Shown one piece after another: positions 53,379 to 61,580 of a stretch of DNA of 64,000 nt (the first letter of the stretch is position 1; every line of letters begins with the position of its first letter). The translations under genes were made by a program, and so were the position numbers. Under the pieces are notes generated by a model. That model ran no database searches. It saw nothing but the letters and a program-made list of their open reading frames with translations, and was not told where the DNA came from. This DNA comes from Blastococcus sp. DSM 46786 (GTDB lineage Bacteria > Actinomycetota > Actinomycetes > Mycobacteriales > Geodermatophilaceae). The stretch is from positions 1 to 64,000 of the forward strand of contig NZ_FOAO01000014.1 of assembly GCF_900109665.1 (NCBI RefSeq). Direction: 5' to 3'.

Positions 53379-53455
53379 GGTGGGTGTAGCTCAGCTGGTA
53401 GAGCACCAGGTTGTGATCCTGGGTGTCGCGGGTTCGAGCCCCGTCACTCACCCCA
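53379..53455 (+). tRNA. tRNA-His (anticodon GTG)
   Basis: Acceptor GTGGGTG with CACTCAC (one G-T pair), D-stem GCTC/GAGC, anticodon stem CCAGG/CCTGG with loop TTGTGAT, and T-stem GCGGG/CCCGT. The extra G-1 (53379) and C73 (53452), which tRNA-His needs for charging, are present, and CCA follows at 53453-53455. Its 3' end is the integration site of the island described here. Confidence 0.97.
53426..53454 (+). repeat. attL-like copy of the tRNA-His 3' end (29-bp direct repeat)
   Basis: These 29 bp, T-arm through acceptor and CC, recur exactly at 61552-61580. The upstream flanks differ (full tRNA here, unrelated there). This is the arrangement left by tyrosine-recombinase integration into a tRNA gene. 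Confidence 0.75.
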
Positions 53456-53461
53456 GCGGTG

Positions 53462-53493
53462 GAGGCCCTGGTCAGTTCGCTGACCAGGGCCTC
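53462..53493 (+). terminator. Terminator after tRNA-His
   Basis: GAGGCCCTGGTCAG (53462-53475), loop TTCG, then the perfect 14-bp complement to 53493, followed by TCCGTTT. A near-copy with a GCAA loop follows the att repeat at 61589, so one of the two came with the island. Confidence 0.85.
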
Positions 53494-53878
53494 TCCGTTT
53501 CCAGAACGAGAACGGGGCGCTCCTCCGCCGCACTGCCCCCGGAAGGCCACTGGGCATGCCCCCCCTCCCCGGCCGGCCAGTACGGCAACACGTGGGCGGA
53601 GATGTGGGACATTGCGGCCGGTGCGGCGGTCAGCCACCGACGGCGGCGATCGTCGCCTCGTCGTCTTCACAGCGGGCCGCCAGCGGCTTGGTTGGCGTGA
53701 CTCCCTGCGGGAGCTCCACCACCGTGACGTACCCGCTCATGTCCACCGAACAGGCATTCGCCCTCGATGGGCAGCGACTGCTCCACGACCCCGTCGTGTC
53801 GGACGGCACCCGGCTGCATCCCAGTTCTCGTCCCCGTCCCGTCGTCTGGCGAGCTCAACCGGACAAGACTTACAACTC
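53494..53878. other. Left flank of the island, no confident gene
   Basis: A 36-aa frame on the minus strand (SGYVTVVELPQGVTPTKPL, ATG 53740, stop near 53630) is the best candidate but has no recognised relative. The last 40 bases are AT-rich and lead to the hipB promoter. No integrase remnant is seen. Confidence 0.4.
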
Positions 53879-53907
53879 ATTGCGTCTTAGAGGGCATAAG
53901 ACACAAT
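53879..53907. promoter_or_regulatory. Inverted repeat, likely HipB operator
   Basis: ATTGCGTCTTA and TAAGACACAAT form an inverted repeat with one mismatch and a 7-bp centre. It lies 28 bp before hipB in an AT-rich stretch, as expected for autoregulation by a HipB-type repressor. Confidence 0.6.
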
Positions 53908-53935
53908 GCTTTGCTAACCACAGGAGGTGTGTCCG

Positions 53936-54262
53936 ATGGCCCGTCGCATGACGGTCTACTCCGCGCCGACGCGCGACGTCTGCGCCGCTCTGGGCTCGGA
54001 GATCGCCCGGGTCCGCCGCGAGCGCCGCTGGTCCCAGACCGAGCTCGCCGAGCGAGTCGGGGTGGCGCTCGGCACGATCCGCGCCGTCGAGAAGGGGGCA
54101 CCTTCGGTCACCCTCGGCGTCGCGGTCGAGGCCGCCACCGTTCTCGGGATCGACCTGCTCGGCGGCCCGGCCGCCGCCGCCGCGCGGACCGCGGACAACC
54201 GACGCACGCTCGCCCTGCTCCCGCAGCGGGTCCGGGCCGAGGCCGTCGATGACGACTTCTGA
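53936..54262 (+). CDS. HipB-like antitoxin, XRE-family DNA-binding protein
   Basis: A 108-aa protein with an XRE HTH at about 22-75: LGSEIARVRRERRWSQTELAERVGVALGTIRAVEKG. It probably neutralises the HipA kinase and represses the pair. ATG 53936 has AGGAGGTG 7 nt upstream. It overlaps hipA by 14 nt. Confidence 0.86.
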   Translation: MARRMTVYSAPTRDVCAALGSEIARVRRERRWSQTELAERVGVALGTIRAVEKGAPSVTLGVAVEAATVLGIDLLGGPAAAAARTADNRRTLALLPQRVRAEAVDDDF

Positions 54263-59052: not shown

Positions 59053-59907
59053 ATGCCCATCGTCGTCACCGCCACCTCCGGCCACCTGGGTCACCTGGTC
59101 GTCCAGGACCTGCTCGACCGCGGCGTCCCCGCGTCGGACGTCGTCGCAGGCGCCCGCAAGCCCGACGCCGTCGCCGACCTGGCCGCCAGCGGCGTCCGCA
59201 CCACCCGGATCGACTACGACGACCCCGCGACCGTCGAGGCCGCCGTCGGTGCGGGCGACACGTTCGTGCTCGTCTCCGGCAACGACCTGGTGAACCGCGA
59301 CCGGCAGCATGCCGACGCCATCGCCTCCGCCGCCCGCGCCGGCGCGCACCACCTCGTCTACACCAGCGGCCTGCGGGCGGCGGAGAGCCCCAGCCCCATC
59401 GCCGCCAGGCACGCCCCGACCGAGGAGGCCGTCCGCGGCAGTGGCGTCCCCTTCACGATCCTGCGCAACGGCTGGTACACCGAGAACTACGGGCGCGATC
59501 TGCACGGCGTCCGTCAGAGCGGGGTCCTGCTCGCGAGCGTCGGTGAGGGGCGGGTGGCCTCGGCCTCGCGACGCGACTTCGCCCAGGCCGTCGGCGCCGT
59601 CGTCACCTCTGGCGGTCATCTGGGTCGGACCTATGAGTTGTCCGGCGACGTCGCCTGGACCTACGACGACCTCGCCGCGGCCCTGAGCGAGGTGCTCGGC
59701 CGCGACGTCATCTACCGCTCCGTGACGCCCGACGAGCACCTCGAGATGCTGACGGGCGCCGGGATACCGGAGCAGTTCGCGCGCATGGGCGTCGCCGTCG
59801 ACGGCGGCATCCGCGACGGCGCGTTCGCCTACCGGAACGGCGACCTCGCCCGCCTCATCGGCCGGCCGACGACGCCACTCGTCGACGGCCTCCGCCCGCT
59901 GGCCTGA
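59053..59907 (+). CDS. NAD(P)H-binding SDR protein, QorB/NmrA type
   Basis: A 284-aa atypical SDR. IVVTATSGHLGHLVVQDLLDRG holds the nucleotide site in altered form, then VVAGARKPDAVADLAASGV, HLVYTSGLRAA and FTILRNGWYTENYG. This resembles E. coli QorB (NADPH:quinone oxidoreductase 2). Second enzyme of the operon. Confidence 0.87.
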   Translation: MPIVVTATSGHLGHLVVQDLLDRGVPASDVVAGARKPDAVADLAASGVRTTRIDYDDPATVEAAVGAGDTFVLVSGNDLVNRDRQHADAIASAARAGAHHLVYTSGLRAAESPSPIAARHAPTEEAVRGSGVPFTILRNGWYTENYGRDLHGVRQSGVLLASVGEGRVASASRRDFAQAVGAVVTSGGHLGRTYELSGDVAWTYDDLAAALSEVLGRDVIYRSVTPDEHLEMLTGAGIPEQFARMGVAVDGGIRDGAFAYRNGDLARLIGRPTTPLVDGLRPLA

Positions 59908-59943
59908 GCGCCCCACCCTTCGCCCCCGACAAGGAGCACCGCC

Positions 59944-60984
59944 ATGACATTCGAACTCGGCGTCTACTCGTTCGGCAACACACCCCGCACTCCCGACGGC
60001 GGCTTCGGTGCCACCGCGCAGGCGATCCGGAACGTCCTCGAGGCGGTGCACCTCGCCGACGAGGTCGGCCTGGACTTCTTCGGGTTCGGCGAGCACCACA
60101 CCCGCTCGATGCCGCTGTCCTCGCCGACCTCGGTCGTGAACGCCGCCGCGGCATCCACGCAGCGCATCAAGCTCGGCACGGCCGTCACGGTGCTGTCCAC
60201 CGACGAGCCGCTGCGGGTGTTCCAACAGCTGGCGACGGCGGCGGCGATCGCACCCGGACGCATCGAGGCCGTCGCCGGCCGCGGCTCCTCGGCGATCACC
60301 TTCCCGATCTTCGACCTCGACGAGCGCGACTACGACATGCTCTACGCCTCGAAGCTCGAGCTGCTCCTCGCCGTCAACCAGCACGAGCAGGTCACCTGGT
60401 CCGGCCCGCACCGGCGCCGCCCCCTGGACGGCGCCCTGATCGTGCCGCGCCCGGAGCAGCCGCTGCGGATCTGGCTCGGCTCGGGCGGCAGCCCGGAGTC
60501 GGTGGGCCGCGCGGTCGAGCTGGGTGTGCCGCTGTTCCTCGGCATCCTGGGCGGCAGCTCGGAGCACTGGGCGCAGTACGGCCGGGCCTACCGCGACGCG
60601 TGGGCGCAGGTCGGCCATCCGGCCGAGGCGGCCGACATCGCCGTCGCGGTGCACGGGTTCGTCGGCCGCGACGACCACCGGGCGAAGGCCACCTACCTCG
60701 AGCACGAGCTGCGCATGTTCGCCACCGGCGCCGCGGAGGTCGGGCGTCCGCCGATGGCACCGCCCGGCCGCGAGGCACAGCTCCAGCCGGGCGGCATGGT
60801 GTTCGCCGGCGGACCGGACGAGGTCGCCGACCGGATCCTGCACCTGCACGCCCAACTCGGGCACACCCGCCAGATCCTGCAGATGGACGTCGGCGGCATG
60901 CCCCACGCCACCTACCTCGAGGCCATCGAGCTGCTCGGCACCGAGGTCCTCCCCCAGATCCGCAAGGAACTCGGCGACCGCTGA
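59944..60984 (+). CDS. LLM-class flavin-dependent oxidoreductase
   Basis: A 346-aa luciferase-like protein. FELGVYSFGNTPRTPDGG, VHLADEVGLDFFGFGEHHTRSMPLSSP, STQRIKLGTAVTVLSTDEPLRV and RIEAVAGRGSSAITF. The AGRGSS and FGEHH features are common in FMN- or F420-dependent family members. Third enzyme of the operon, preceded by AAGGAG. Confidence 0.88.
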   Translation: MTFELGVYSFGNTPRTPDGGFGATAQAIRNVLEAVHLADEVGLDFFGFGEHHTRSMPLSSPTSVVNAAAASTQRIKLGTAVTVLSTDEPLRVFQQLATAAAIAPGRIEAVAGRGSSAITFPIFDLDERDYDMLYASKLELLLAVNQHEQVTWSGPHRRRPLDGALIVPRPEQPLRIWLGSGGSPESVGRAVELGVPLFLGILGGSSEHWAQYGRAYRDAWAQVGHPAEAADIAVAVHGFVGRDDHRAKATYLEHELRMFATGAAEVGRPPMAPPGREAQLQPGGMVFAGGPDEVADRILHLHAQLGHTRQILQMDVGGMPHATYLEAIELLGTEVLPQIRKELGDR

Positions 60985-61023
60985 CAGCGGTCACCTTCCC
61001 CCACTTCCTCTCAGAGGAGAGTC

Positions 61024-61377
61024 GTGTTCATCGCCCTGGTCATCACCACCGTCCTGCTGGCCACCATCGCCCTCAACTCCGCGGCCATGAAGCTCCGCCG
61101 GAACGAGCAGGTCGTCGCCGTCATCCAGGGCACCGTCGGCGTGCCGGAGCGGCACCTGCCCACCCTCGCCGGCCTCGAGATCGCCGGCGCCGTCGGCATC
61201 CTCGTCGGTCTGTGGCTCGAACCGCTGGGCATCGCCGCCGCGGCCGGCCTCGTCGCCTACTTCCTCGGTGCGGTCGGCGGCCACCTCCGCGTCGGCGACA
61301 CCATGAACGTCGCGATGCCGATGCCGCCGCTCGTGCTCGCCGTCGTCGTCCTCGCCCTGCGCCTGCTGACCCTCTGA
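61024..61377 (+). CDS. DoxX-like membrane protein
   Basis: A 117-aa protein with four hydrophobic segments (starts FIALVITTVLLATIALNSAA). LPTLAGLEIAGAVGILVGLWLEPLGIAAAAGL fits DoxX-like small membrane proteins. In other bacteria DoxX-type proteins take part in redox or detoxification membrane complexes. Last gene of the operon and of the island. GTG 61024 has CAGAGGAGAG upstream. Confidence 0.78.
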   Translation: MFIALVITTVLLATIALNSAAMKLRRNEQVVAVIQGTVGVPERHLPTLAGLEIAGAVGILVGLWLEPLGIAAAAGLVAYFLGAVGGHLRVGDTMNVAMPMPPLVLAVVVLALRLLTL

Positions 61378-61551
61378 GGCGATTGGCGTCGTCCGCCACC
61401 CGGGTCAGGCCGGTTCGGGACTCGTCTCGATGCGGGCGAGCTTGTTGGGGGCAAGCGGCCGATCAGGACCGCTCCGGGACGATCGAGGCTGTCCGGAAGG
61501 CCCCGCTATCGTGCGGGATCACCGGGCCACCAGGCCCGGAACCGGCCTCAC
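61378..61551. other. Right flank of the island, no gene
   Basis: Gene-free up to the att repeat. GGGCC-acca-GGCCC (near 61524) is a small hairpin. No tRNA body precedes the repeat, which shows the right copy is a fragment. Confidence 0.4.
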
Positions 61552-61580
61552 TCGCGGGTTCGAGCCCCGTCACTCACCCC
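61552..61580 (+). repeat. attR-like copy of the tRNA-His 3' end
   Basis: Exact copy of 53426-53454, with no D-arm or anticodon arm before it, so it cannot be a tRNA. It is followed 8 nt later by a terminator hairpin, as the native tRNA-His would be. Confidence 0.75.

Follow-up and report, generated by a model that had tools for sequence, protein, structure and literature searches.

Worn remnants of small mobile elements beside tRNA genes are ordinary. The 8.1-kb genomic island described here, behind the tRNA-His gene of the soil bacterium Blastococcus sp. DSM 46786 (Geodermatophilaceae), would on its own be one more worn genomic island; it occupies positions 53426-61580 of the window, the whole 64,000-nucleotide stretch of contig NZ_FOAO01000014.1 that was analysed. 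Together with its relatives it belongs to a series, at one site and within one family but with varied cargo, that runs from an intact integrase through a frame-shifted gene and shorter stubs to none, and we consider it likely that the island is a decayed integrative element in tRNA-His whose integrase was lost. Such a series opens two questions to study: the rate at which integrase loss fixes islands, and the continued use, if any, of ends that lack an integrase.

Judged from sequence, the closest known kind appears to be the cis-mobilizable element (CIME), defined in the available portion of PMC5704250 as a decayed integrative and conjugative element (ICE) or integrative and mobilizable element (IME) that keeps attL and attR, and the island may work like such a remnant. 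As in the CIMEs described there, it lies at a tRNA gene, and its sites may be related to those of an integrase-bearing element, that of Blastococcus sp. TF02A-30 (record NZ_QOHJ01000007.1). The latter genome is G009 in our numbering, in which G000 is the window's own genome (4,587,055 bases in 47 contigs) and other G numbers are compared genomes. Both attachment-site cores are exact and the right arm is homologous to that of G009. No integration genes were found in the island (0 matches with 21 integrase queries, the loss itself being read from relatives), no transfer genes occurred among its 10 scanned proteins, and none was noticed in the G009 element, which was read by eye. The island is unlike a CIME in that its left arm is unrecognisable, its genome holds no neighbouring element at the same site, and its mobility is only putative.

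The Dehalococcoides islands at ssrA offer a further parallel. The accessible text of PMC3146451 describes 16 that have an integration module at their left edge and 15 that lack one, and for the latter its authors consider the same reading. There, too, many islands lie behind one RNA gene and a conserved motif stands directly 5′ of the direct repeat, although a serine recombinase and transfer-messenger RNA are involved there and a tyrosine integrase and tRNA-His here. Islander-type islands, as set out in the consulted part of PMC4383910, combine an intact tRNA gene with a displaced 3′ fragment in the same orientation, an arrangement that the island shows within the 2-200 kb range used for them; Islander also requires an integrase gene inside, but none was found here. 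Actinomycete ICEs (AICEs) resemble the present family in that their tyrosine integrases mostly use tRNA 3′ ends, according to the available passages of PMC3218068, but the integrase, replication and FtsK-type transfer genes that define them had no representative family among the proteins scanned. Within the portions of the open-access literature that were searched, we found no description of this element family.

The tRNA-His repeat and the right arm

The first-pass annotation of the window, made from its letters alone, had proposed an integrase-less genomic island in tRNA-His, and the exact cores, a homologous right arm and the lack of integrase matches support that proposal. Its ends are two exact 29-bp copies of the tRNA-His 3′ end, spaced 8126 bp apart. 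Neither ARAGORN nor Rfam at its gathering cut-off found a tRNA at the right copy, which agrees with the earlier claim that this copy has no tRNA body. The terminator hairpin described behind each copy is also present, and a similar hairpin was seen by eye 3′ of tRNA-His in at least 18 of 21 other aligned loci. A scatter of the repeat over many unrelated loci had been named as a possible objection and is not the case in G000: with at most one mismatch, the 26-base core occurs twice in the 4.59-Mb genome, both times at the island ends, and the reversed core, used as a control, does not occur (0 occurrences). The island is not distinguishable by its G+C content. The repeat stands above chance because it is exactly a tRNA 3′ end and because the bases before its right copy match the right ends of other genomes. 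A second exact 29-bp direct repeat lies elsewhere in the window, at 11360-11388 and 12209-12237, 849 bp apart.

The ~93 bases preceding the right copy match that end of the G009 element at a local score of 50; none of 1000 shuffles did as well, the highest reaching 13.5. When the 150 bases 5′ of the right copy were compared with the corresponding ends in G009, G004 (three), G006, G007 and G020, each comparison beat all 1000 shuffles; a control right end from a different tRNA-His element (G015b) gave p 0.93 and a decayed copy in G018 gave p 0.36. The core is present in 24 of 40 genomes searched (G000 included), and a pattern of upstream bases plus core, with up to 3 mismatches, occurs at 8 places in 6 of 23 genus-set genomes (G000, G004 three times, G006, G007, G009 and G020). 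Seven of these places lie 3′ of tRNA-His in the orientation of the tRNA, 7.7 to 26 kb off; the eighth (G004:C290) is on a contig with no visible tRNA-His. On these comparisons, the second copy of the tRNA-His end looks like a real attachment site.

Alignment of 17 right ends reveals a family-wide plan: a box AGATTGGGGGGCAAC, GACCGCTCAGG repeats, a dyad CCGGGCC-ACCA-GGCCCGG and ACCGGCCTCAC, followed by the core. G000 has a G-rich box at 61445-61455 and repeats at 61461-61485, both worn versions of the plan, then the dyad at 61522-61539 and the conserved ACCGGCCTCAC at 61541-61551. Four genomes (G020, G403, G353 and G216) share little of the plan past the last ~30 bases.

Directly 5′ of the core, at 61505-61539 and likewise in homologous right ends, lie a hairpin and, by eye, a TANNNT box, which might act as an outward promoter or as a dyad bound by protein. 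The same features raise the idea that the right copy is no attachment site, and is instead a broken second tRNA-His or a small RNA resembling a tRNA, complete with a promoter, hairpin and terminator of its own. A TATCGT box, the hairpin and the terminator do surround the right copy (by eye), and a perfect 7-bp stem occurs in 10 of the 17 right ends (one with a G-U pair), maintained in G417 by changes to both partners of one pair. That stem is shorter or broken in the other 7, however, the shared upstream sequence is unlike the tRNA body, and there is no Rfam match at the gathering cut-off. Moreover, in G004 the right end has an excisionase-like gene next to it, and in G009 the opposite, left end of the element bears the integrase; we consider a tRNA or small RNA at this position extremely improbable.

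Integrase decay in relatives and the question of a helper

The G009 element is 7.7 kb long and carries an intact gene for a 481-amino-acid tyrosine integrase (C36:196532-197974; Phage_integrase, 9e-19) about 190 bases behind tRNA-His. A search of 112 family genomes found the core in 68, with two or more copies in 17. Defining an island as a tRNA-His end plus a bodiless second copy, we counted 15: G000, G004, G006, G009, G403, G353, G410, G184, G413, G414, G107, G417 and G216 from the core search, with G007 and G020 added from the genus-set pattern search. Left out of the multi-copy genomes were G015, G022 and G401, which carry another element, and G407, which has two complete tRNA-His copies. 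G184 has near-identical tRNA-His loci (L160 and L159) at both ends of a single contig, probably the overlap of an unclosed circular assembly; its extra core copy was not counted because it sits close to the end of the contig and resembles an assembly overlap of a single locus.

Only G009 has an intact integrase; the gene is broken or cut in six islands and undetectable in eight (G000, G007, G020, G184, G403, G413, G353 and G216). In G414 it is full length and frame-shifted near residue 279, and stubs at the same place retain the first 135 residues in G417, ~82 in G410, 65-100 in G004 and 20 in G107, the last resting on an E value of 4.6e-5 in one search and missed in the 21-query search. G006 has a piece of ~30 residues. 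Outside the count, G018 keeps an integrase stub, and G432 has the gene behind a variant tRNA-His, with a match that ends near residue 313. The G009 integrase had no other intact close relative in the 112 family genomes (E 1e-27) or in 397 genomes of the order (E 1e-30, with 4 candidates scored per genome); in the latter search, 14 genomes matched, at up to 44% identity.

Among the part of the family islands searched for it, an excisionase-like gene (HTH_17, 0.0029, below cut-off) stands intact close to two G004 right ends and is decayed in G006; none was detected in G000. In G004, locus L034 (G004:C277:6745-26029) has two right ends 1.1 kb apart with an excisionase-like helix-turn-helix (HTH) gene near each, and a third right end lies on contig C290, an arrangement that looks like a sign of tandem accretion.

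At the left end, exact GGGGGGCA boxes occur in the arms of G009, G004, G410, G414, G107 and G417, and one-mismatch versions in those of G184, G413 and G020; the G000 left end has none within 1 mismatch. Only exact boxes were used as evidence, because one-mismatch versions also occur in island-less genomes. Local DNA alignment, run against shuffles with two scoring schemes, gave no significant match of the G000 left end to an integrase stub (p 0.06 for G009, 0.34 for G004 and 0.11 for G006); for G018 the value was p 0.023, uncorrected for many tests.

The first-pass annotation had left two alternatives, that the integrase was lost or that the island is a cargo-only satellite moved by a helper. 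Support for loss comes from the decay series seen in relatives, and we favour it because the gene decays in place there, because G000 has no close integrase or third core, and because the left arm is missing. A satellite would have functional ends, and would never have carried its own integrase or would no longer need it; the integrases of related elements would move it, either in trans or through accretion in cis. Consistent with this, 14 of the 15 islands are without an intact integrase, yet five of those 14 (G004, G410, G414, G107 and G417) keep exact boxes in the left arm, as G009 does. In addition, the right arms of nine chosen genomes are 70-90% alike. Over 36 pairs they average 78% identity, whereas the 85 bases 5′ of the tRNA average 69% and orn 86%; the likeness of the arms could simply reflect recent insertions. 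Some other members are perhaps still moved by rare carriers, because nearly all lack an intact integrase while their right arms stay alike.

For the G000 island itself, the evidence points away from a satellite. A search of G000 for an integrase using the same tRNA-His end found no close relative of the G009 enzyme (the best was 34% identical, over the catalytic part), the core occurs solely at the island ends, with no other copy of the site, and no left-arm box was recognised; the integrase gene is also broken or cut in place in six other islands. We therefore give the satellite little chance here. Of the 6 Phage_integrase matches in the genome, at least two score as Xer-like, and a helper with an unrelated integrase is possible. 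A broader proposal is that the Geodermatophilaceae tRNA-His islands form a shared pool of cargo cassettes, with ends under selection and the integrase repeatedly removed, in which the rare carrier (1 of 15) moves the others in trans or in cis; the G000 island would then be a former member of that pool. We regard this proposal as unlikely.

If the integrase was lost, the island would descend from an ancestor related to the TF02A-30 element. Its tyrosine integrase gene would have stood directly after the tRNA, and some members would also have had an excisionase-like gene close to their right end. This ancestor would have recombined with the last 29 bases of tRNA-His. From the layout, the left junction would have rebuilt the tRNA and brought in the element's own terminator, and the right junction would have retained the displaced 29 bases and the old host terminator. 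The right arm persists, whereas the integrase, the excisionase-like gene and the left arm are undetectable. The interior is now a patchwork of hipBA, a lipid-gene scrap and the oxidoreductase block, all with homologues in relatives, although the order of events is our reconstruction. The island is most likely immobile now.

Cargo, hotspot and empty site

Inside the island we recovered what had been annotated, namely hipBA, gene remnants, a TetR-run oxidoreductase operon and no integrase, and no recombinase was present among the proteins scanned. To this we add the oxidoreductase gene at 56545-57186, which is part of the same block as the TetR operon. That block (56545-61380) is matched whole in G296, where it is 80% identical to G296:C1:1963681-1968587, far from the core copy of that genome (3617349). 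The hipB region is 90% identical in G114, and the hydrolase scrap has homologues in many genomes. The stretch 55531-56480 comprises three adjoining gene scraps (hydrolase, HTH regulator and one resembling diacylglycerol acyltransferase (DGAT); names partly by eye), of which the parts at 55538-56100 and 56099-56405 were probably joined by a deletion, because they lie 2.4 kb apart in G300. The cargo of G000 is thus a patchwork of genes with homologues at separate places in relatives. By eye, the islands carry metal-transport genes in G004, mercury-type genes in G006 and heat-shock genes in G009, alongside the toxin-antitoxin and oxidoreductase genes of G000.

Beyond the right copy, the flank G000:C12:61581-66116 (window 61581-64000) is also a mosaic, with best matches at separate places in other genomes: a pair of extracytoplasmic function (ECF) sigma factor and YCII genes is 90% identical in G021, which matched twice, and a transporter-like gene is 92% identical in G409. 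Apart from an inverted homologue in G415, the methyltransferase of this flank has better homologues elsewhere than at tRNA-His. A block shared with relatives begins near contig position 66117, past the window, and lies ~4.7 kb behind tRNA-His in G014 and ~3.4 kb behind it in G251. Because of this shared block, the mosaic flank and homologues behind tRNA-His in G415, the entire ~12.7 kb behind tRNA-His is a hotspot; attachment sites bound 8.1 kb of it.

A hotspot could also account for the island without mobility of this cargo, if the old right end stayed in place and the DNA between it and tRNA-His was swapped by homologous recombination. Contents do differ between genomes, and both the cargo and the stretch past the right copy are patchwork. 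Several findings weigh against a decayed integrative element, of which the G415 homologues and the clustering of the island label also speak for such swapping. No integrase remnant is demonstrable in the G000 island itself, so its former integrase gene is deduced from relatives. G415 carries homologues of the methyltransferase (inverted, 58% amino-acid identity) and of the NmrA-like gene (52%) at 6.3-8.4 kb behind tRNA-His, and the 19.5 kb read there contains no second core; cargo could have entered by homologous recombination. The suggested check for a strict empty site, in which tRNA-His is followed directly by the 61589 terminator and the methyltransferase, found none in the 21 loci, G415, G251 or the family loci. 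On the orn tree the island label falls in clusters (none of 500 shuffles was as low), so vertical descent over a long time, with losses along the way, may also account for it.

On the other side, G000 groups in that tree with G014 and G015 (99/98), its nearest sampled relatives, and both are without the right end; the G015 contig stops 3.9 kb behind tRNA-His, and the right-end pattern is absent from the entire G015 assembly. The label still needs at least 6 changes, 4 of them forced by well-supported branches, on a tree whose rows were picked partly for having islands. We regard recombination at an old right end as unlikely, and a decayed integrative element remains our preferred reading. The annotation had also named, as grounds for rejecting the island, relatives that lack the element and yet carry the same genes in the same order. 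In 21 other tRNA-His loci, read up to 17.5 kb downstream (some stretches shorter), no island gene and no right-flank methyltransferase, sigma-factor or YCII gene appeared at a coverage of at least 30%; in the family loci, the G415 homologues and alcohol dehydrogenase-family homologues (34-43%) in the G410 and G107 islands blur this result.

Features of the island and a second tRNA-His element

General family scans found no replication or transfer families among the 10 island proteins, and PADLOC returned nothing useful for five cargo proteins. Our in-house open reading frame caller is crude and was used solely for clusters and a first look.

Table 1. Coordinates in the window of the tRNA-His locus, the island and its genes
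Feature	Position	Strand	Evidence
tRNA-His (GTG), integration target, intact	53380..53455	+	ARAGORN, Rfam RF00005
Left attachment-site core, 29 bp, tRNA 3′ end	53426..53454	+	exact repeat
Terminator hairpin 3′ of left copy; element-side if the junction is attL	53464..53491	+	sequence
Usual place of left arm and integrase start in related elements	53492..53930	.	marginal 18-bp match to G009 left arm, z 2.1, p 0.06
HipB-like antitoxin	53936..54262	+	HTH_3 1e-09; TIGR03070 1.5e-12, below its cut-off
HipA-family toxin	54249..55514	+	HipA_C 3.1e-46
Truncated gene, alpha/beta-hydrolase remnant by eye	55531..56043	-	~0.57 kb matches relatives' loci, 73-85% DNA identity; no Pfam family
HTH regulator remnant (by eye)	56036..56446	-	no family above cut-off
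Possible N-terminal scrap, wax-ester/DGAT-like acyltransferase	56367..56480	+	TIGR02946 4.5e-4, far below cut-off
NAD(P)-binding oxidoreductase	56545..57186	-	PF13460 1.1e-40
TetR regulator	57299..57973	+	PF00440 2.9e-15
Zinc-type alcohol dehydrogenase/quinone oxidoreductase	58051..58971	+	PF08240 2.1e-16
NmrA-like oxidoreductase	59053..59907	+	PF13460 5.6e-17, NmrA 8.6e-12
Luciferase-like monooxygenase	59944..60984	+	PF00296 1e-42; TIGR03858 5.4e-100, below its cut-off
DoxX-like membrane protein	61024..61377	+	PF13564 1.9e-23
Right arm of element	61445..61551	+	homologous to right ends of G009, G004 and others
Right attachment-site core, displaced tRNA 3′ end, 29 bp	61552..61580	+	exact repeat
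Terminator hairpin 3′ of right copy; presumed original host terminator	61589..61616	+	sequence

A second element uses the same 26-base core in G015, G022 and G401 (L045, G015:C170; L051, G022:C11; L168, G401:C44), with a different, 377-amino-acid integrase directly 5′ of the core. A search for a plasmid source gave 20 partial-match records, 16 of them from Streptomyces, and none covers 80% of the query. In G022 the element may be free or inserted elsewhere, because it is on a different contig from tRNA-His. It is 98.9-100% identical, over 8.6-17.7 kb aligned, in two Blastococcus genomes and one of another genus.

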